NCBI RefSeq assembly: GCF_944324935.1
Contig: NZ_CALUYG010000014.1
Span: forward strand, 1-58,492
Direction: 5' to 3'
DNA: 58,492 nt
Source of the DNA: an uncultured Desulfovibrio sp.
GTDB lineage: Bacteria; Desulfobacterota; Desulfovibrionia; Desulfovibrionales; Desulfovibrionaceae
Position numbers and translations under genes: made by a program. The notes under the pieces are model-generated. The model saw only the letters and a program-made list of their open reading frames with translations. It had not been told where the DNA came from and searched no databases. Position 1 is the first letter of the stretch, and each line of letters begins with the position of its first letter. Shown here piece after piece: positions 35,249 to 45,082 of this stretch.

Positions 35249-35988
35249 ACAGCTTTCCCCCATCCCGGCCGGCTCCCTGCGCCGCCCCCCAGCTCAACTC
35301 CTGGGGATGGTCGCGGCCGGGAGAACGCGGAACGGAAAATGAAGACGCCTTCCTCAACTGGCCGGAACGCCGTTGCTGGGCCGTGGCGGATGGCGTGGGA
35401 AGCAGCGCCTACGGCGGCAATGCCAGTCGTCTGCTTGTGGAAAAACTCATGCACATCCCCGAAGCCGCCTCGCTGGACAGTCACGTCCGCAATGCCCGCG
35501 CCTGTCTGGAGGAAGCCAATACGCTCCTTGCCTCGCATGCCTTGTGGCCCGGCACGGCGGCCAGCACCATCGTCGCCCTGCTCGCGCACGGGGAACAGGC
35601 CGCCTGCCTCTGGTCGGGCGACAGCCGCTGCTATCTGCTGCGCCGCGACGTTTTGTACCAGTGCACACGCGATCATACGCTGCGTCAGGAAAAGATCGAC
35701 AAGGGGGAACTCACCGTCCCGGAGGCCTATCGCATGGTGCGGGGAAACATCATCACCCAGGCCATCGGGGCATCCGCCGCCAGGATAGATGAAGTGCGCT
35801 TCACCCTTTGTCCCGGTGACCGCCTTCTGCTGTGCTCCGACGGGCTGACCGGCATCCTGGACGAAACGACGCTCGCCGCGCTGCTGCGCCAGGGCACTGC
35901 CCGCGCCTGCGCCGAGCGCATCCGGGACAGCCTGTCCTCCTGCTCCCAGCCGGATGACGTGACCCTGATCACCCTTGTCTGGTCATAG
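35245..35988 (+). CDS. pppA: PP2C-family protein phosphatase (PppA-like)
   Basis: 247 residues. Metal-dependent Ser/Thr phosphatase signatures are present: ENEDAF (31-36), VADGVGS (47-53), GDSRCYLL, DRLLLCSDGLTG and PDDVTLIT near the C-terminus, giving the usual Asp ligands. No membrane span. PppA reverses kinase phosphorylation of the FHA protein and sets T6SS firing in Pseudomonas; the kinase lies next door. Start chosen by the ATGA overlap and GGAGG 9 nt upstream. Confidence 0.9.
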   Translation: MNSFPPSRPAPCAAPQLNSWGWSRPGERGTENEDAFLNWPERRCWAVADGVGSSAYGGNASRLLVEKLMHIPEAASLDSHVRNARACLEEANTLLASHALWPGTAASTIVALLAHGEQAACLWSGDSRCYLLRRDVLYQCTRDHTLRQEKIDKGELTVPEAYRMVRGNIITQAIGASAARIDEVRFTLCPGDRLLLCSDGLTGILDETTLAALLRQGTARACAERIRDSLSSCSQPDDVTLITLVWS

Positions 35989-36132
35989 CGCATGTTGCCT
36001 TTGCAAAAGATGACATGCGCGGTGGCGGCACAGCGCCGCCCGGCCCAAAGCGAGCGGAAAAACCGCGTTTTTTCCGCGAAACGGCAGGCCGTATGGTTTG
36101 AAACGCAGTGCGTCTCAAACAGAGGTTGCTCG
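35987..36132 (-). repeat. 146-bp structured repeat, copy C (inverted)
   Basis: On the minus strand it reads GAGCAACCTC..., GTTTGAGACGC act GCGTTTCAAAC, GGAAAAAACGCGG...TTTTTCC, GGGCCGGGCGGCGC, CTTTTGCAAAG and ends ATGCGCT. Stems are kept with one G-U-type change. It fills the gap between the phosphatase and kinase genes, so it lies inside an operon. Confidence 0.7.
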
Positions 36133-36144
36133 AGAGGAAACGGC

Positions 36145-37119
36145 ATGCGCACCAGAAAAAAAACCTCCCCCCCACGGCGCGATCAGGAATCGGCACAGGC
36201 CGGAGACGGCGTCCGCACGGTGCGCGCCGGCGGGGAACACGCCTCCCTGCGCTTCCTGCCGGAACGCCGGCTCGGCGTCGGGGGGCTGTGCGAAGTCCAT
36301 GCCGCCAGAGATCTGCTCAGGCTGGAATACGACGACGGCTTTCCGCAGGTCGCCGTAAAATGCCTGCGTGCGGAATTTGCCCATTCGCCCGTGGCGCGCC
36401 GCCTTCTGGCCCGGGAATTTTTCGTTGTCCGCCATGTGTCGCATCCCGGCGTGGTGCGCGTCCATGACCTGCACGAGGAAAAAGGCCGGCTGTGCCTCAG
36501 CATGGAGCTCCTGTCGGGCCGAACGCTGTACGACCTGCTGGGTCGGCATCAGGCGGGACTGGGGACGGCGGCCATCCCCCTTGCGCGGCAGCTGTTCCGC
36601 TCGCTGGCCCTGCTGCATGGTCTGGGCATAGCGCATGGCGACGTGAAGCCAGCCAACCTCATGCTGGAACGGGACGACCGCCTTGTCCTGCTCGATTTCA
36701 ACACGGCGGAAGTCCTCCCCCAGCCGGGACGCGCTGCCTCCCCCATCAGCCAGAGCCTGCGCTCCCATCTCGGCCTGACGACCTACAGCCTGCTGCACGC
36801 GTCGCCGGAACGCCTCGAAGGCGGCCCGCCATCCTTTGCCGACGACGTCTTTTCCGCCTGCTGCACCGTCGTTGAACTGCTCGACGGCGTCCACCCCTTT
36901 GCCCGCCGCTCGGCGCTGGAAGCCAGAAACAGCGGCATGCCCCGGCCGCGCCTGTCCATCGGCGGCACGCAGGAAGGCAAACTGCTGCTGCGCGGCCTTG
37001 ACTTTTCCCCATCACGGCGTCCTCCGGCCCAGGAGCTGGAAGATGCCTTTCTTTCCCGAAATTTTGCCGCCAGGTGTTTCGCCACCCTGCGCGCTCATCT
37101 GACAACAAAGGAGTTCTGA
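36145..37119 (+). CDS. Ser/Thr protein kinase of the T6SS pathway (PpkA-like)
   Basis: 324 residues. The fold spans ~30-300: glycine loop RRLGVGGLCEV near 39-50, VAVK with catalytic Lys73, catalytic loop HGDVKPANLML (Asp166, Lys168), DFN at 184-186, and SPERLEGG (APE-like). Two deviations stand out: His-Gly-Asp in place of HRD, common in some bacterial kinases, and Asn for Gly in DFG, which is rare and could change Mg binding or activity. There is no membrane span or periplasmic sensor, unlike classic PpkA. The start after GAGAGGAAACGGC is preferred; the open frame upstream is copy C of the repeat. Confidence 0.85.
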   Translation: MRTRKKTSPPRRDQESAQAGDGVRTVRAGGEHASLRFLPERRLGVGGLCEVHAARDLLRLEYDDGFPQVAVKCLRAEFAHSPVARRLLAREFFVVRHVSHPGVVRVHDLHEEKGRLCLSMELLSGRTLYDLLGRHQAGLGTAAIPLARQLFRSLALLHGLGIAHGDVKPANLMLERDDRLVLLDFNTAEVLPQPGRAASPISQSLRSHLGLTTYSLLHASPERLEGGPPSFADDVFSACCTVVELLDGVHPFARRSALEARNSGMPRPRLSIGGTQEGKLLLRGLDFSPSRRPPAQELEDAFLSRNFAARCFATLRAHLTTKEF

Positions 37120-37898: not shown

Positions 37899-37935
37899 CC
37901 AGACTCGCGGCGCACGGAAAAGGGGAGTTCCGCCA

Positions 37936-38190
37936 TTGATGGCAGATTGTCAAACGAAAGTTGGCACAAAGAATACCCCGTCTTCCCTTATTTTTCCACA
38001 GTTGTCCTGTAACCGGACTTTTTGCGCGGGCGGTGGGTTATGAAGGCCACCGCCCGCGCCATCTCTTGCTCCCAAGGTCCTGACGTTTCGGATGCGGGGG
38101 AAATATTGCCGGAGCAGTCCGTTTGTCTGCTCATTGAGCCACCGCTCACCGGACAGCCGCCGTGGCAGATAGCGCGTGTGGCGCAAAAAT
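37936..38190 (-). pseudogene. IS30-family transposase C-terminal remnant
   Basis: On the minus strand one frame gives ERWLNEQTNGLLRQYFPR, the IS30 C-terminal catalytic motif (NExTNGLLRQYFPK), and a shifted frame gives INHRPRK-like ITHRPRKKSGYRTTVE. At least one frameshift separates them and the front of the gene is missing, so it is dead. It lies just after the T6SS core operon and marks a boundary. A 13-bp hairpin at 38024-38059 is part of this remnant. Confidence 0.75.
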
Positions 38191-38671
38191 GCCTGTCTGT
38201 CTGTTTGTCGCGTTGCTGTCGATCCCCATAAGGCCCCTTCGTCACCTACCGGGCGGCCTGCGGCCGCCCTCGGGTCGCTGCCGGAGCGGGATCGCCCAAC
38301 CTTTCCGCAGCGGAGCGGGAAAAGGCGTTCTCGTCATCTTTTCCCCAGGTTCCCCATCTCGCCCCCAACGCGCGTTTGCCGGGGGAACGTCAGGGACACG
38401 AGCCCCCCAAGGCAAGCGGAGCGTGTACAGTTTACATGTCTTATCTGGTAAAATCATTTGCAAAATTTGTGTTGACAGACCCTAATTGGGGATATGATCG
38501 CCGTTTCGGCTGCGTTCCCCTGAAATGGCCGCCGGGCTGGAGCCAAAACTGGCGGCAATGTTTCTGAGATCTTTTTCCCCACAGGGCCGCTCCGGGTGCT
38601 CTGGTCCACGAGGTAAGCGGAGGTAAGCGTCGTCTATTGCCGTCCCTTCCCCCCTGCCGCCTTCCACGCGC
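38191..38671. other. Gene-free stretch, no clear feature
   Basis: 481 bp between the IS30 remnant and the HsdM-like gene. TTGACA (38472-38477) and TATGAT (38493-38498) occur on the plus strand, but with a 15-bp spacer and no gene downstream. Nothing else is recognised; it may be decayed mobile-element DNA. Confidence 0.4.
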
Positions 38672-40120
38672 TCATGCCAGGTGGCGCATGGCCGCCAGCT
38701 TGTCCAGCAGCGCATCCACCCTGCTTTCCACCGCATGCAGGTCGTTCTCTATGGCGGCGCGCCGACCGGCGAGCCGGCGGATGCCTTCACTGGAGCTTGG
38801 CGCGGCCTGCACCAAATAGCGGGCGGGCAGCCAGACGTTATGGCGCAGCACTTCCGCGCGCGGCACACGGCGGCTGATGCCGGGCACTTCTTCCCGCCGT
38901 TCCCTGTACGCCGCTATCTTTTCCAGCTCCCCGGCATCCAGCTGAACCTGCATCCCGCTCCGGCGGCCCCAGCCTGACAGGTCAAGCATGAAGATGTCCT
39001 CCTCCGCCTGTCGGACGCCCCCGGCTTTGCGCCGGCGGTCAAAGAGCAGCAGGGCGCGGGCGGTGGTATCGCCCAGCATGATGTTGCCCGGCAGCAGGAT
39101 GACGGCATCCAGCAGGTTCCTGCTGACCAGATCGCTCCGGCGAGCGGCGTCCTCATCTTCCCGGAACAACAGGCGCATGTGCGCCAGCAGCACGGCGCGT
39201 CCGTTGTCCAGATCGAGCTCGTTGAGATGGCGGTAGACGATGTGCATGGCGTCGTCCCTCGCGGCTGTCCCGGCGCTGATGGCGACATCCTGTCCCGGAT
39301 CGGGCGAGCCGCAAAGCACCCTGTCGGCAAGGGAAAAAGAGGCTGCATAGTCCGGCATGCCGCGCTCGGGCGGAAGGTCGGCCAGCGGATCGCTTGTGAG
39401 GGCGACCACCCCGCTCAGATACGGCAGCAGGATGCCGAGCGGTGAATCCCCGCCCTGCCCGGAACAGCGCAGACGCTCGGCCACCGGCAGCGTGAGGGCT
39501 GTCTCCGCCAGCAGGTTACCGTAGCCCATTGAGGGATCACACACCGTTTCTCCGGGCGCGACAGCGGCAAGGCGTATCATCAGGCGGGCGAGCCAGCGCG
39601 GCACGATGGGCTGTGGCAGGGATTTGCCGCGCGAAACGGCATGATCGGCCAGTTTGTCCAGCAGCAGATGCGTGGCCAGATCCCGGTCCAGCAGGGGCAT
39701 GTCCGCAAAGGCGGCGAGCCGGGCGCGCAGGGCTGCCGGGTCGGGGAGGTGGGCCGGGCAGAAAAGGCAGTCCCGCCGGCGGCCCAGCGCCGTGCGGATC
39801 AGGACGGCCAGCAGGGGCCATTCGGCCTCCTCCCACGGTTCGTGCGGTTCGGCATCGGCGTTGCGCGCGGGAGCGGAAGCCTGCCGCGTGTCGATCTGCC
39901 GGATGAGCTTGTGGAAAAAACCGGGCGGGCAGAGCTGCGAGAGCGCAAAAAAGCCTAGCGTGGCCTCCACTTCCCTCAGGTAGGCATAGGCCTCCCCGAA
40001 CCGGCGTGTGCAGGGATGCGCGTCGAACCAGTCATGCGCCGTGGCGCAGCATGCGCTGACGCTCCGCTGCCACTGGCGGTATTCCTCACTGCCGGGGAGA
40101 GTGACGAAAGGGGTGTCCAT
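38672..40120 (-). CDS. HsdM-like N6-adenine methylase homologue, motif IV degenerate
   Basis: 482 residues. It follows the type I M-subunit plan: an N-terminal helical domain (~1-170), AdoMet motif I VCDPSMGYGNLLAE near 194, and a C-terminal part with LLPGNIMLGDTTARALLLFDR, matching the LP..lF..T..a...l pattern of HsdM. The catalytic NPPF/Y motif is replaced by GSPD in VLCGSPDPGQD near 270, so methyl transfer is probably lost while AdoMet or DNA binding may remain. The start is MDTPFV, with TAAGGAG upstream, 10 nt after the HsdS-like stop. No hsdR gene is in the window, so this is not a complete restriction system. Confidence 0.7.
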   Translation of the reverse strand: MDTPFVTLPGSEEYRQWQRSVSACCATAHDWFDAHPCTRRFGEAYAYLREVEATLGFFALSQLCPPGFFHKLIRQIDTRQASAPARNADAEPHEPWEEAEWPLLAVLIRTALGRRRDCLFCPAHLPDPAALRARLAAFADMPLLDRDLATHLLLDKLADHAVSRGKSLPQPIVPRWLARLMIRLAAVAPGETVCDPSMGYGNLLAETALTLPVAERLRCSGQGGDSPLGILLPYLSGVVALTSDPLADLPPERGMPDYAASFSLADRVLCGSPDPGQDVAISAGTAARDDAMHIVYRHLNELDLDNGRAVLLAHMRLLFREDEDAARRSDLVSRNLLDAVILLPGNIMLGDTTARALLLFDRRRKAGGVRQAEEDIFMLDLSGWGRRSGMQVQLDAGELEKIAAYRERREEVPGISRRVPRAEVLRHNVWLPARYLVQAAPSSSEGIRRLAGRRAAIENDLHAVESRVDALLDKLAAMRHLA

Positions 40121-40130
40121 ACGCGGCTCC

Positions 40131-40958
40131 TTACGGGCAGATGCCGGTATCGTCGGCAAGATCGGCCATGAGCGTTTCCAGCTCAGCCGCGGCCGTGCGG
40201 GCATCCGGCCTGAACGGCGGTTCCGGCGCGACGTCGCTGCACGAAACGTCTCCTTCTTCCTCCTGCTCGCACAGGGACGGCATGTCCGGCGCATCCTGCG
40301 ACCGTTCATAAAAGGCCGTATCGATGTGCCGGGCATGGTGGAGCAGCGCATCTTCCACCATCGTCCGCCGGTCCTCGATGAGCTGCCGGCGGTAGCGGAG
40401 CTCCTGATGCAGCAGGGCCGCCGTCTCCATGATCAGCGCCTGAGCTTCACGCGGCGGCAGGGGTATGGGCAGGTCGCTCAGGTCGCCCTTGCGAAGCACC
40501 TCGGCATTGTCGCCGGTGCTGCGCGAGCGCAACTGGCTTTGCGTCCGGGGATGGTTGAGCAGCCAGTGCAGGTAGGCCGCCGAAGCGGCTGGCGACGTGG
40601 GAGGAAGGTCGAGCTTTTTGCGGATGGATGCCTCCAGCACCTGCCGCGGCCGTATGATGATGATGGGAGCGGCCGCCACAAGGCGCTTCACCCCCGACGG
40701 CAGTTTGGGAGGCGCATCCAGCAGCGTGGCGTCGTTGACCATGCTCCGGGAACGAAAAAGGATGTCATGCCGGCGAAGATGAAAATGCGGCTTGACGTCC
40801 GTCAGATGCACGCGGGTCAGCTTGTCCGTGTGCAGCGTCTCGCCGCTGAGGTCGGAAAGTTGCACGATCGCCGTTTCCCCTTGCGGGTCCGGAACGACGC
40901 GGGTGCGAAAGGGATAGCCGACACGGAGCTCGGCCAGAGCCTGGAGAGGGACTTCCAT
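40131..40958 (-). CDS. HsdS-like specificity protein with one target-recognition domain
   Basis: 275 residues, about half the size of a normal HsdS with two recognition domains. The order is one TRD (LRVGYPFRTRVV..., IVQLSDLS, DILFRSRS...) and a C-terminal conserved helix with LSDLPIPLPPREAQALI, the usual IP.PPL..Q..I signature, followed by a coil and an acidic tail (~225-275) absent from normal HsdS. Half-size S subunits can dimerise to recognise palindromic bipartite sites. Cotranscribed with the HsdM-like gene. GTGAGG lies 8 nt before the start. Confidence 0.7.
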   Translation of the reverse strand: MEVPLQALAELRVGYPFRTRVVPDPQGETAIVQLSDLSGETLHTDKLTRVHLTDVKPHFHLRRHDILFRSRSMVNDATLLDAPPKLPSGVKRLVAAAPIIIIRPRQVLEASIRKKLDLPPTSPAASAAYLHWLLNHPRTQSQLRSRSTGDNAEVLRKGDLSDLPIPLPPREAQALIMETAALLHQELRYRRQLIEDRRTMVEDALLHHARHIDTAFYERSQDAPDMPSLCEQEEEGDVSCSDVAPEPPFRPDARTAAAELETLMADLADDTGICP

Positions 40959-41306
40959 TGAGCAGCCTCACAAAATAATAATGGCAATTATAGAAAAATT
41001 TTCTCCCGGGCACAAGCGCTTTCCTTTTCACCACCTTTTCCCTTCACTGCCAGCCGCCGCACAGGCCGTGGACAGGTATGCCTCTTCGAGACTATCGTAT
41101 AACATATTAAATTTACTTGCTATATTTTTTATAAAAAATAGTATTAATAAAACTATTAAAAATATTCATTATGTAGAAATAAAATTACTTTACACAGTCT
41201 CGCTGTTTGGCTAGGTTTGCTTCGTGAACAGCAGCGACGCGTCACGGTCGCTGGCCCGTCATGGGCGACATTTATTTTTATAAATAATATTACAACAGGA
41301 GGACAT
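40959..41306. promoter_or_regulatory. AT-rich divergent promoter region with an 18-bp palindrome
   Basis: 348 bp between the HsdS-like gene and the ATPase gene, far more AT-rich than flanking coding DNA. A perfect 18-bp palindrome, TATTTTTTATAAAAAATA, lies at 41123-41140. Many TATAAT-like hexamers make the exact promoters ambiguous. AGGAGG stands before the ATPase ATG. Confidence 0.5.
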
Positions 41307-42914
41307 ATGGCATCCATCTCCACGAACACCTCCGGCGAACGTCGCATCGGCTTCCTGACCACGCCGCACCCCGTCCCTGCCGCCACGCCGCAGCGAGCCC
41401 ACGACCCTGCCGCCCTGCTCCAGTTCGACGACGGCGAGGTCGTCAATTTCGAGGACGCCCGCCATAATTGCCTCGTGCTGGGCACGACCGGCAGCGGCAA
41501 GACCGCCTCCATCATCCTGCCCGCGGCGGAACGGCTCATCGCGGCGGGCTTCGGGGGCTTCGTCGTGGACATCAAGGGCAATTTCACCGATCAGATCCGT
41601 GCCATTGCCCGCGCTCACGGTCGGAAACGGGACATCCTCGAACTGGGGACCAGCCCGCAGGCCCGCAAGGTCAACCTTCTTGCCGGCGCGTCCGCCCAGC
41701 GCATGCACGACATCCTCCAGCAATTCATGTCATGCAGCGCCGCGCCGGATGATCACAACAGAGCTTTCCACCTGCGCGGCCTGCGCTGTGTCGTCGATGC
41801 CCTGCTCATGCTGCACATGATGGCCGAACGGGGAAAGCTGCCCATGCATCTGTGCGTTTTGGAGCGTCTGATGAATGATGAGGAATACGCGCGTGACTGC
41901 TTGAAGCGTTTTTGCCGGAGCATCCAGGACGAGGACGACCCCGAGGCACATGATCTGGTGAAGCGCATCAAGGGTGATCAGTTCCACTTCATCTCGGAAG
42001 GAGTGCCCAAGGATATGCACACCACATGGCAGGAGCAGGTCGGGTATCGGCTTGGCGTCATCCGAACGACCCTGCAACTGCTGCATCAGTCGCGCAATCT
42101 CATGGATCAATTCTTTGCGCCCGGCAAGCCGGCGCCAAACATGGCCCGGGCCATTCACCGACAGCGCAAGATCGTCGTCCTGCGCCTTGCGGCGGACTGC
42201 GGGGAACTGGGCGCCGTGCTGGCCCGCACGCTGCTACGGGACTATTACGCCTCCGTTTACGCGCATGGCCTCCAGCTCCCCGAGGGCCAGTACACCTTCT
42301 GCATCACTGATGAAGCGCAGGACTTCATTTCAGTGAACAGGCTGGATCAGTACAACGACAACTCCTTTCTGGCCCGCAACCGCGAGTTCCGCAATATCAG
42401 CATCATGGGCACACAGTCCGTGGCGGCGCTGGTGGCCCGCACCCACGATGCCGAAGCCGTGGAGGCCATGCTGAACAATTTCAATGTGCGCGTGTTCTTT
42501 TATTCGGATGATCCGCTGACCCAGCGGCTGGCGGATATGCACGACCAGACGCCGCTGACCGCCTACAGAAGGGGCGAGGGGCTGCTCGTCAGGATTGATG
42601 CCGCAGCCGGGCGGCGTGTCGTGGGGCGGGTCAGCGTGCAAGCCATGCACGATGCCTTGCAGGGGATCCTGACGGCCCACAGAGGCCGCTGTGTCAGCGC
42701 GGCCCTGCCCTGCCGCGCCCCTTCCCGGCGGCAGATGCTGCACAAGGCGCAACGGGAACGCGCGCTGGAAGAAGCCTACCTGCACATGACGCCGCAGCCG
42801 AGGCAGCGCCTGGTCTTTCCCCGCCAGGGGCCGTTCCCCGCGCAGGCGGAAGCGGAAAGCAGGTTTGCGGCGCACCTGGTGGAGCAACTGCCCTTCGGCC
42901 CCAATAACGAGTAG
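41307..42914 (+). CDS. VirD4/TraG-like DNA-translocating ATPase, soluble
   Basis: 535 residues. Walker A GTTGSGKT at 59-66 with VVDIKGNF (VirD4 Walker-like strand), Walker B CITDEAQDFI near 331-340, and the TraM-recognition-type end (NISIMGTQSVAALV, LNNFNVRVFFYSDDPLT). Coupling ATPases of conjugation normally carry N-terminal membrane spans; none is present, so the protein is cytosolic. No relaxase or type IV secretion gene is in the window. It is divergent from the HsdM/HsdS-like pair. A role as a motor of a DNA-processing or defence module is inference; an alternative is a relic of an integrative conjugative element. AGGAGG precedes the ATG at 41307; an in-frame TTG further up is rejected. 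Confidence 0.7.
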   Translation: MASISTNTSGERRIGFLTTPHPVPAATPQRAHDPAALLQFDDGEVVNFEDARHNCLVLGTTGSGKTASIILPAAERLIAAGFGGFVVDIKGNFTDQIRAIARAHGRKRDILELGTSPQARKVNLLAGASAQRMHDILQQFMSCSAAPDDHNRAFHLRGLRCVVDALLMLHMMAERGKLPMHLCVLERLMNDEEYARDCLKRFCRSIQDEDDPEAHDLVKRIKGDQFHFISEGVPKDMHTTWQEQVGYRLGVIRTTLQLLHQSRNLMDQFFAPGKPAPNMARAIHRQRKIVVLRLAADCGELGAVLARTLLRDYYASVYAHGLQLPEGQYTFCITDEAQDFISVNRLDQYNDNSFLARNREFRNISIMGTQSVAALVARTHDAEAVEAMLNNFNVRVFFYSDDPLTQRLADMHDQTPLTAYRRGEGLLVRIDAAAGRRVVGRVSVQAMHDALQGILTAHRGRCVSAALPCRAPSRRQMLHKAQRERALEEAYLHMTPQPRQRLVFPRQGPFPAQAEAESRFAAHLVEQLPFGPNNE

Positions 42915-42964
42915 GGAGGATCGCGCGGCGCGTCCGCCATGCGGGGGGCGCGTCGCTGACGGGA

Positions 42965-43246
42965 TCAGCGGGGGCGGGGGGAGCGCGTCTGTTCCGGCTC
43001 CTCCAGCCCCTGTTCCCGCAGCCGGGCGGCATAGAGGGCAAACAGCTCCCCGGGAGCGATGGCAAGCGCATCCGCCAGCCGGATCAATGTCCGCGCGCGC
43101 GGCTCGAAGACGCCGTGTTCCAGATAACTCAGGTAGCGCTCGCTGATGCCGGAGGTGCGGGCAAGGGCATACTGGCTTATGCCGCGTTCCTTACGCAGGG
43201 ACACCAGCATGTCGCCAAAAGGGCATGGCGGGGAATTCTTGCTCAT
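42965..43246 (-). CDS. XRE-family transcriptional regulator
   Basis: 93 residues. HTH_3 domain at ~10-68: LVSLRKERGISQYALARTSG, ISERYLSYLEHG, PRARTLIRLADALAIAPGELF. The remaining tail is short and basic. It is divergent from the phosphoethanolamine transferase gene across 177 bp that holds two matching palindromes, so autorepression and control of that gene are likely. It converges on the ATPase gene. Confidence 0.85.
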   Translation of the reverse strand: MSKNSPPCPFGDMLVSLRKERGISQYALARTSGISERYLSYLEHGVFEPRARTLIRLADALAIAPGELFALYAARLREQGLEEPEQTRSPRPR

Positions 43247-43279
43247 CTTACGATGCTAGCCCAGTTCGGCCAAAAAAAT

Positions 43280-43301
43280 TACCCGCTAAATTCAGCGGTT
43301 A
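43280..43301. promoter_or_regulatory. Candidate operator 1 for the XRE regulator
   Basis: 22-bp palindrome with two mismatched pairs, core CCGCTAAATTCAGCGG. It lies just downstream of a minus-strand TTGACG (43309-43314), where it would block the regulator's own promoter. Confidence 0.6.
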
Positions 43302-43356
43302 TGTTACACGTCAACACCCTGAAATGCTTGACTTGACACGCCCCCTCTCCTTCCTG

Positions 43357-43378
43357 TACCTGCTGAATTCAGCGGGTA
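43357..43378. promoter_or_regulatory. Candidate operator 2 for the XRE regulator
   Basis: 22-bp palindrome with one mismatch, core CTGCTGAATTCAGCGG, same half-sites as operator 1 with 55 bp between them. It lies downstream of a plus-strand TTGACA (43333-43338) and 46 bp before the transferase ATG. Confidence 0.6.
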
Positions 43379-43423
43379 TATATGATCCCGTATCCACCCC
43401 CACAAGCTCCCGGGAGAGTACAC

Positions 43424-45082
43424 ATGAGATTCCCCTCCATAAGGCAGGTCCTGCACCAAACAGGCATGGGCAAAATACTGTCCGTCACGCTATTCTGTCT
43501 GTATTTTACGTTCTGCATCACGTTGATCTCGGCCTTTTCGTATCCCAATTACGCCATAAAATATCTTTTGACAGCGATCTGCCCTGCAAGTTTGTTCATC
43601 CTCGTCCTTTCCATCGCTCGGGGCAGGCTGTTCACGACGCTTGTCGTGATCCAAGCGGCATATCTTTCGTTTATCAATATTTTTTTGATCTATCATACCG
43701 CCCTGAATGGTGTTCCTGTCGCGAATGAAGGCTTCTTCGTTATTTTTGAAGCCTTCTCGCAAGAGAATATTCATGAAAATTGGGGATGGATAAAATCAAA
43801 CTTTTCCATTATGGGGATAGCGCTTATCATCCTCTCCATTTCAGTATTTATTATTGTCACAAAAAAAAGCTTGCGATACAGCAGACAGAGGGTGAATATC
43901 CCCTTTGTAGTCTGCATCACTGCGCTCCTGCTTGCTGTCGGCCTCTATAAATATAAGGATATTGCGGAATTGCTGAGCAAATATCAGCAATCGGCGATCC
44001 CTATACACTATGTCAGATACCAAAATGTCATTGCGTCGATGAAAGACATCAAAAAGTATACGGACAGCATAGCATTCACCGCCGCCTGCCGTGATATGGA
44101 CAAAAATCCGTTATACATAATCGTTATCGGTGAGTCCGCCACGCGTCACCACTGGGGACTCTATGGATATGAACGGGATACGACGCCGCTGATCAGCAAA
44201 AAAAATAATGTATTCGTCTTCAAGGATGCCGTCGCAACATCTTCCGCCACACTCATGTCATTGACCAGCAGCCTTGCCGTGGACACTGCCGATGGCAAAA
44301 AAATTTCCCTTGCGGATTTTTTTGTGGCAGCGGGATTCCGCACGGAGCTTTACTCCAACCAGCCCGCAGGCGGACGCCATGATACTGCTCTTGGCTATCT
44401 GTTCAACAATATCGAATGGAAATACCACGCATCAAAATTTGGACAGTATGCCCAATATGATCAAATCATTGTTGCAAAAGCGATCGACGCCATAAAAAAG
44501 AATGATGTGCCGACGGCGATATTCATCCATTTGCTTGGATCGCATGTCGACTTTTGCGACAGATACCCAAAAGAGTTCGCCCGATTCACATCAGACGATG
44601 TCATCCGCGACAAGCCGTATATCCCACAAGGAAAAAGAATATCTGCCGCACAGCGCATCAACTGCTACGATAATTCGATATATTATACCGATCATCTTCT
44701 TGATAGGATCATAGATGCCGCGAAGGATAGCGGACGATACGGCTTTGTGCTGTATTTTTCCGATCATGGGGAAGAAAATTTTGAGTTCAGGGACCATTTT
44801 GGGCGCGGTGGACTCAATTCGACGATAGTTTACGATATTCCCATGATCATATGGACATCAGAAGATTTTTTGCGTGAGCATGCTGAGATGCTGACTCCCG
44901 CCATATTGCGGCAGCCTGTCTGGATGAAGAACCTCCTCCCTTCGCTTGCCGATCTTGCCGGGATACGTTCCGAGCATATCGACATAAGCAAAAGCTTTTT
45001 CCGGCCGCATGCCGCCGGAGAAGTACGCCTGTGTGACGACAAGCCCTATGAGTCTCTGGCAGGCCATGCGCGCATGCCCTGA
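43424..45082 (+). CDS. Phosphoethanolamine transferase (EptA/sulfatase superfamily)
   Basis: 552 residues. An N-terminal membrane domain of about five spans (to ~200) is followed by a periplasmic sulfatase-like domain. Signatures: GESATRHHWGLYGY near 236 (metal-binding Glu237), TSSATLMSL near 275 (candidate nucleophile Thr), FIHLLGSHVDF, YFSDHGEE and DHFGRG (metal ligands). Such enzymes add phosphoethanolamine to lipid A or other surface sugars, lowering negative charge and often raising polymyxin resistance. The gene is clearly more AT-rich than its neighbours, a sign of transfer. The start is MRFPSIR, after GGGAGAG. An upstream in-frame start would sit inside the operator. Confidence 0.85.
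   Translation: MRFPSIRQVLHQTGMGKILSVTLFCLYFTFCITLISAFSYPNYAIKYLLTAICPASLFILVLSIARGRLFTTLVVIQAAYLSFINIFLIYHTALNGVPVANEGFFVIFEAFSQENIHENWGWIKSNFSIMGIALIILSISVFIIVTKKSLRYSRQRVNIPFVVCITALLLAVGLYKYKDIAELLSKYQQSAIPIHYVRYQNVIASMKDIKKYTDSIAFTAACRDMDKNPLYIIVIGESATRHHWGLYGYERDTTPLISKKNNVFVFKDAVATSSATLMSLTSSLAVDTADGKKISLADFFVAAGFRTELYSNQPAGGRHDTALGYLFNNIEWKYHASKFGQYAQYDQIIVAKAIDAIKKNDVPTAIFIHLLGSHVDFCDRYPKEFARFTSDDVIRDKPYIPQGKRISAAQRINCYDNSIYYTDHLLDRIIDAAKDSGRYGFVLYFSDHGEENFEFRDHFGRGGLNSTIVYDIPMIIWTSEDFLREHAEMLTPAILRQPVWMKNLLPSLADLAGIRSEHIDISKSFFRPHAAGEVRLCDDKPYESLAGHARMP

Follow-up and report, generated by a model that had tools for sequence, protein, structure and literature searches.

A half-HsdS protein beside a VirD4/HerA-like ATPase and an HsdM relative without motif IV in Desulfovibrio: a possible docking module with more than one partner

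Type 1½ enzymes such as M.AhdI, M.BsaBI and M.PshAI have a separate M (HsdM-type) protein and an S (HsdS-type) protein with a single recognition domain, and a 2M+2S composition has been reported for M.AhdI (PMC3874165). DndH joins a HerA/FtsK motor to recognition domains, an adenine methyltransferase that is inactive and a nuclease domain whose key residues are described as retained (PMC10853773); ideas similar to this logic appear in PMC12839542, and the MADS system is cited in PMC12904381. In our study, we describe three intact genes at positions 38672-42914 of a 58,492-nucleotide stretch from an uncultured Desulfovibrio sp. (the window, on contig 14 of a 2.7-Mb genome), where an earlier note made from the sequence had placed three open reading frames (ORFs). 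The HsdS-like gene (40131-40958, minus strand, 275 amino acids) is the first of an S-M pair and is followed by the HsdM-like gene (38672-40120, minus strand, 482 amino acids, Pfam N6_Mtase at E 2e-16), whose start at 40120 corrects a longer ORF start; divergent from the pair, the third gene (41307-42914, plus strand, 535 amino acids) encodes a soluble ATPase resembling VirD4/TraG and HerA. Taken as a whole, our reading is that a catalytically dead Type 1½ complex would serve as a docking platform, that its partner here would be a motor, and that the two would act against invading DNA; we hold this reading to be evenly balanced between right and wrong.

The locus is like the Type 1½ enzymes in that a separate M and a single-domain S are encoded together, and it differs from them in that the window's M group lacks NPP(F/Y/W), no cognate restriction enzyme was seen, and an ATPase or a radical-SAM gene is attached. 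With DndH and other "HerA-FtsK capture" systems, as presented in the portion of PMC10853773 used here, it has in common, judged by sequence, a recognition domain and an inactive methyltransferase, together with a motor that weak profile matches place only tentatively in the HerA/FtsK class. However, in DndH a single long polypeptide includes the nuclease, whereas the window has separate proteins with type I-like M and S, no nuclease was found in them, and the motor is, by weak matches, nearer to VirD4; that portion of the account makes no mention of a VirD4/half-HsdS arrangement. By analogy, then, the arrangement would resemble the logic proposed for DndH, but with other parts, no recognised nuclease and partners that are exchanged. 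MADS has the same three kinds of protein, and mad8 is the top PADLOC match of the ATPases scanned, but the window proteins lie far below the MADS5 and MADS6 cut-offs and MADS has more components (the PADLOC models run up to mads_8). Among the NCBIfam matches listed for the ATPase up to E 1 there is no MADS8, and NF047743, considered as the MAD8 accession, belongs to a different family. In comparison with VirD4/TraG and DotL, the window ATPase has no clear membrane anchor and no recognised transfer genes, and it is paired with an HsdS-like protein. Nor is this a type I restriction-modification (R-M) locus of the usual kind: as the earlier note had said, HsdR is missing, at least from what could be recognised in the neighbouring genes, whose ORFs were read by eye with no HsdR profile run over the window, and the HsdS is single-domain. 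Among the literature matches listed, judged by title and the start of the abstract, none described a half-HsdS/VirD4-ATPase system or an HsdM-HsdS/radical-SAM system, a result that does not establish absence from print.

The C-terminal half of the HsdM-like protein aligns with HsdM structures (E 5e-14 to 7VRU and 1e-13 to the M subunit of EcoR124). Its group consists of nine loci in the genus, where 79 genomes were searched and distant partial matches to ordinary HsdM were left out of the count; the other eight members are 31-82% identical to the window protein, and at E 1e-20 the group is found in 7 of 288 genomes of the family and in 1 of its 44 genera. NPP(F/Y/W) is absent from all nine proteins, while both of the strong HsdM that this genome encodes (PF02384, 238 and 233 bits) carry NPPF. 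At the aligned position of motif IV the window protein reads SAGTA (residues 282-286) and the others SAAPAF or similar, and the letters that replace the motif differ between branches of the group. The earlier note had placed GSPD where NPPF/Y should be; the canonical motif is indeed missing, but GSPD (residues 271-274) is not its equivalent, since it is lacking in the 82%-identical relative and the aligned site begins 11 residues later. The same note had motif I preserved, which is true of the window (DPSMGYG) but varies across the group, where eight of the nine proteins keep D-x3-G-x-G; the pattern is also unmatched in one of these two strong HsdM, taken as controls, though both have NPPF. 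The alignment with HsdM structures, together with the loss of NPP(F/Y/W), indicates at the sequence level that this protein is very probably an HsdM relative that has lost catalysis.

The specificity protein agrees with its earlier description, having a single recognition domain within its 275 residues and an extra acidic tail, in which residues 211-275 hold 17 D/E against 3 K/R. Pfam barely matches it (E 0.11), and PADLOC gives mad5 at 2e-8 together with many type I specificity models, the best of these at 1e-7. In contrast to the one recognition stretch at the window, the HsdS frames elsewhere in the genome (contigs 9 and 11) have two each. S is the next gene upstream of M at all nine pair loci, in one case (G070:C93) with a dispersed repeat between them.

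The third protein is, as had been proposed, a divergent soluble ATPase with both Walker motifs, GTTGSGKT from residue 59 and DEAQ within residues 332-339. Its P-loop, the DE of its Walker B and the TQS stretch that follows are features that we take to resemble those of type IV coupling proteins. Its family matches are weak: HerA_C at 0.002 and FtsK at 0.08 in Pfam, conju_CD1115 in NCBIfam at E 2e-6 but with 27 bits against a cut-off of 250, and DotL, the Dot/Icm coupling protein, at E 2e-7 in a profile comparison. PADLOC gave mad8 as the top match for all 12 ATPases scanned (2e-6 for the window, 2e-5 to 2e-10 for its relatives). No clear membrane segment was seen by hydropathy in 23 ATPases, the highest 19-residue value being 2.09 in G074a and that of the window protein 1.66 at residue 69, in both just past the P-loop; none is as clear as a classic coupling protein would require. 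Some relatives have a C-terminus that looks like a Zn ribbon (CxxC pairs, by eye); its reading as an HNH nuclease was dropped because the needed histidines are not conserved. In G030, a second partial copy of the N-terminal region of the ATPase lies upstream of the ATPase gene in a different frame (L073:3052-3279).

A family-wide search with the ATPase at E 1e-20 returned 23 places in 20 of the 288 genomes, and 21 loci remained after two fragments (G045 and the second G030 piece) were dropped. A half-HsdS, present as a protein by itself or as the C-terminal portion of a larger one, adjoins the ATPase in 12 of these 21 loci, which belong to four genera (G000, G070, G012, G030, G028, G074 on contig 71, G044, G183, G257, G262, G259 and G093), and the two genes are divergent in nine of the 12, as in the window. 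The M part is more variable: separate in three of the 12, fused and HsdM-like by profile in two, and missing in three, while in four its place is taken by an N-terminal domain whose origin is unclear. The two fused domains, of G093 and G044, match the HsdM-like group when aligned together (hhalign probability 92, E 8e-7), and, taken singly, that of G093 also passes Pfam N6_Mtase whereas that of G044 does not. The N-terminal domains of G030, G028, G074 and G183 give a weak in-register match to the HsdM-like group (E 0.02), whose probability of 2 is too low to establish an HsdM origin for them. On the ATPase tree the half-S label changes three times against a mean of 7.0 in shuffles, none of 500 being as low. 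Pfam specificity stretches number 48 in the 19 genomes searched, with 0-4 in each, from which we infer that adjacency of a half-HsdS and the ATPase by chance should be rare. From its presence in 12 of 21 loci and its clustering on the tree, the half-HsdS plus the ATPase seems to be the older core.

Across the phylum, at the same threshold, the ATPase was found in 3 of 395 genomes sampled from the phylum, all of the window's genus, although only the best three candidates at most were scored per genome, so that other ATPases may have been missed. A broader search of genome contigs gave at least two distant ATPase loci, and more distant ATPases lie on a Desulfohalobium plasmid and on enterobacterial plasmids, where the two stretches fetched held no half-HsdS. 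The ATPase was not found in phage records, and scans of viral contigs for relatives of the ATPase and of the HsdM-like protein confirmed none. In loci L120-L125 of genus g37, ATPase relatives without a half-HsdS share two small downstream ORFs, of 142-174 and 198-215 amino acids, the second of which in L120 is a serine resolvase by Pfam; this is a different and probably mobile setting of the same motor.

From the side of the HsdM-HsdS pair the picture is different. The ATPase accompanies the pair at three of the nine loci, and at each of the other six (G000:C32, G070:C54, G009, G066, G011 and G068) S is instead directly preceded, on its own strand, by a gene for a radical-SAM protein, the G068 copy being split over two contigs. 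Consequently, the co-conservation of the three genes that had been expected is found for the half-HsdS and the ATPase but not for the trio as one obligatory unit. The partners are exclusive: no pair locus has both in the stretch scanned, and G000 and G070 each have one pair of each type. At E 1e-60 the radical-SAM protein occurs in 6 of the 79 genomes of the genus, exactly the six with ATPase-less pairs, and at E 1e-25 the 288 family genomes add one distant partial match (G129), for which the 14 kb retrieved contain neither M nor S and which looks by eye to lie in a sugar cluster. The protein contains a CxxxCxxC motif, lies below every NCBIfam cut-off listed, matches pVip at most weakly (2e-5 in one of two proteins scanned), and its profile does not match that of the HsdM-like group. 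The trio of radical-SAM, half-HsdS and dead HsdM is conserved in six genomes (L072:3342-6960 and its sister loci L067-L071), and it is possible that it forms a system of its own.

With regard to function, some ATPase loci stand beside known defence systems. In G183, the DISARM genes DrmD, DrmMI and DrmA lie 2.3 kb past the end of the fused half-S gene; in G259, a relaxase separates the half-S gene from the BREX genes BrxF, BrxC, PglXI and BrxHI, which start at a distance of about 5 kb; and the G262 ATPase is followed after 0.5 kb by genes for R-M of the XhoI type and for a CBASS cyclase together with NucC. Fic genes lie near the G257 and G023 loci. The earlier suggestion of an accessory defence or DNA-handling system is partly supported in that the recognition pair lies with a motor, that the half-S/ATPase pairing is conserved and that defence genes occur near three loci; the defensive role itself is drawn from these neighbours.

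We propose that the HsdS-like and HsdM-like proteins would form a complex of the 2M+2S type, descended from a Type 1½ adenine methyltransferase, which would still bind a specific DNA sequence without methylating it. Because S has a single recognition domain, the target would presumably be an interrupted palindrome. As a docking platform, the complex would recruit a partner to the recognised site: in the window a soluble DNA motor that resembles VirD4/HerA and would form a ring, in the sister loci a radical-SAM enzyme. The motor form would load at the recognised site and then displace, pull or block the DNA, most likely acting against invading DNA.

It is important to note that several results weigh against this proposal. 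No half-HsdS was found in the stretches around 9 of the 21 ATPases (G023, G001, G074 on contig 78 near the contig end, G226, two in G227, G236, G252 and G241), and the ATPase tree carries a long-branch warning and near-copies cluster on it by themselves. The radical-SAM link was seen in one genus only, and shared descent of the six relatives may explain part of it. Family scans of the three proteins up to E 1 listed neither a nuclease nor any other domain that would kill, and the predicted structures are of low confidence, both for the HsdM-like protein alone (mean pLDDT, the predicted local distance difference test, 35.5) and for the ATPase with two distant relatives (34.9). PADLOC was applied to some neighbours of 7 of the 21 ATPase loci (the window, G012, G093, G183, G257, G259 and G262), and it had no match for the two proteins scanned at G012 or for the single one at G093. 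The module lies not in a defence island but in a type VI secretion system (T6SS) region, which we take, from the ORFs, to make up most of the window and which the earlier note had not mentioned. Finally, relaxase-like genes near G257, G259, G262 and G023, the first three of which also have the half-S, fit a role in mobilisation.

Under that explanation, which we consider unlikely, the ATPase would be a soluble VirD4-like coupling protein, the half-HsdS would help to recognise a transfer origin and the window would hold a stranded remnant. The similarity to conju_CD1115 and DotL speaks for it, as do the relaxase genes (1.2 kb past the half-S gene in G257 and 2.1 kb past it in G259, in both with the same orientation, and 0.3 kb from it in G262) and a Rep_1 replication gene near G001. 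Against this, the window, G070 and G012 loci showed no recognisable relaxase, although few neighbours were scanned there (one protein in G070, three in G012, and the window's ORFs mostly by eye), none of the 23 ATPases has a clear membrane anchor, and it is hard to see what HsdM-like parts would do at a transfer origin. Since defence genes are frequent cargo of mobile elements, the relaxases do not decide between mobilisation and defence. The dead-platform reading has also to be set against an ordinary methyltransferase, solitary or of Type 1½, that would methylate host DNA despite its unusual motif IV and have the ATPase as a mere neighbour. The retention of motif I in most of the group agrees with such an enzyme, and so do the order and sizes of M and S, which match those of M.AhdI, M.BsaBI and M.PshAI (PMC3874165); yet the loss of NPP(F/Y/W) throughout the group, with replacements that differ between branches, makes it rather improbable.

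To a reduced or divergent MADS, in which HsdM, HsdS and the ATPase would be mad2, mad5 and mad8 and a nearby kinase mad6, we give a similarly low probability. It draws on the mad8 and mad5 top matches, on a match of M to mad2 at 2e-7, behind generic type I models, and on a match of the kinase (36145-37116) to mad6 at 4e-35, but NCBIfam MADS5 reaches 16 bits against a cut-off of 400 and MADS6 64 against 460, the kinase is better matched by PD-T4-6 (5e-43) and belongs by position to the T6SS region, beside PP2C and TssM genes, and no mad1, 3, 4 or 7 is among the matches listed for the six window proteins scanned. Very improbable, in our view, is a decaying type I R-M remnant without function: HsdR is not recognised, the catalytic motif is lost and one flank has sequence resembling an insertion sequence (IS), but the ratio of nonsynonymous to synonymous substitution rates (dN/dS) is 0.27-0.34 for the three genes, their frames are intact, G070 has the same organisation and the absence of the motif is common to proteins as diverged as those of the group.

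The comparison with G070 also bears on the extent of the module. The same four genes in the same order occur in G070:C93, the fourth being an XRE-type regulator gene (42965-43246, minus strand, 93 amino acids) that is convergent with the ATPase gene; its family match agrees with the flanking XRE regulator named in the earlier note, its product resembles R-M controller and other XRE proteins, and the G070 copy, also adjoining the ATPase, is 91% identical. The G070:C93 DNA matches the window over 38653-40136, 40142-42783 and 42958-43302, ending there on the right; its left flank is beyond judgement because the contig begins 0.4 kb before. About 0.3 kb, containing the dispersed repeat, separates S and M in G070. 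For the window genes compared with their G070:C93 counterparts, the dN/dS values (M 0.27, S 0.29, ATPase 0.34, XRE 0.12) point to purifying selection on all four, which are kept rather than decaying and appear to make up a cassette some 4.6 kb long. Two near-palindromic boxes at 43283-43375, CCGCTAAATTCAGCGG and CTGCTGAATTCAGCGG, lie upstream of the XRE gene and are a candidate operator; no significance is claimed for them, as the pattern was derived from the sites themselves and 9 of 100 shuffles give as many matches. The divergent intergenic region between S and the ATPase (40959-41306) is AT-rich and wholly contains, on the plus strand, three of the six promoter-like matches in 37900-43450, where shuffles lead one to expect 0.9 in the whole stretch; these matches are no evidence of function.

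The neighbours of the module matched by family are the kinase, the XRE regulator and a phosphoethanolamine transferase. This last, low-GC gene (43382-45082, with 45-50% in 1-kb windows against about 65% around it) was likely acquired separately. On the left flank and outside the module, the supposed IS remnant (37941-38210, plus strand) is indeed multi-copy in the genome, and five assembly contigs begin inside it, which fits an IS and makes it likely to be part of one, although no transposase was identified. A second, different multi-copy sequence lies at 38208-38487. A dispersed repeat of about 145 bp at 35987-36131 has at least 39 other matches in the genome (40 of 102 candidates were scored), is also present in the relatives' loci L065, L066 and L069 and once between S and M of G070, and covers the listed start of the kinase ORF, so that the true start is probably near 36145. 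In G012 (contig 136, L135:699-1548), a fragment of a T6SS-type kinase (72 residues) and an XRE gene with 78% identity lie about 10 kb from S, M and the ATPase; the XRE and kinase neighbourhood thus recurs there. A link between the module and the T6SS was rejected: besides the window only this 72-residue match in G012 suggests it, and the 8.9-kb G070 contig has no T6SS match.

Tentatively, and as a possibility that we would not yet expect to hold, these loci may form a modular family in which a dead M-S docking platform, made of protein only and programmed by sequence, works with an interchangeable effector, either a VirD4/HerA-type motor or a radical-SAM enzyme (whose substrate might be DNA or a protein bound to it), and whose older core, the half-HsdS/motor pair, is spread over several genera and lies partly in defence islands. 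It is known that recognition complexes of the type I sort direct methylation as well as restriction by HsdR; if this proposal is true, many orphan HsdM and HsdS genes annotated as methyltransferases may do other work, and the recognition part would be re-targetable by domain swap. The association also raises the unexpected question of what role a radical-SAM enzyme has on a DNA-reading complex. The half-HsdS with its motor would be a minimal case for how a ring ATPase with no recognised nuclease could act on invading DNA.

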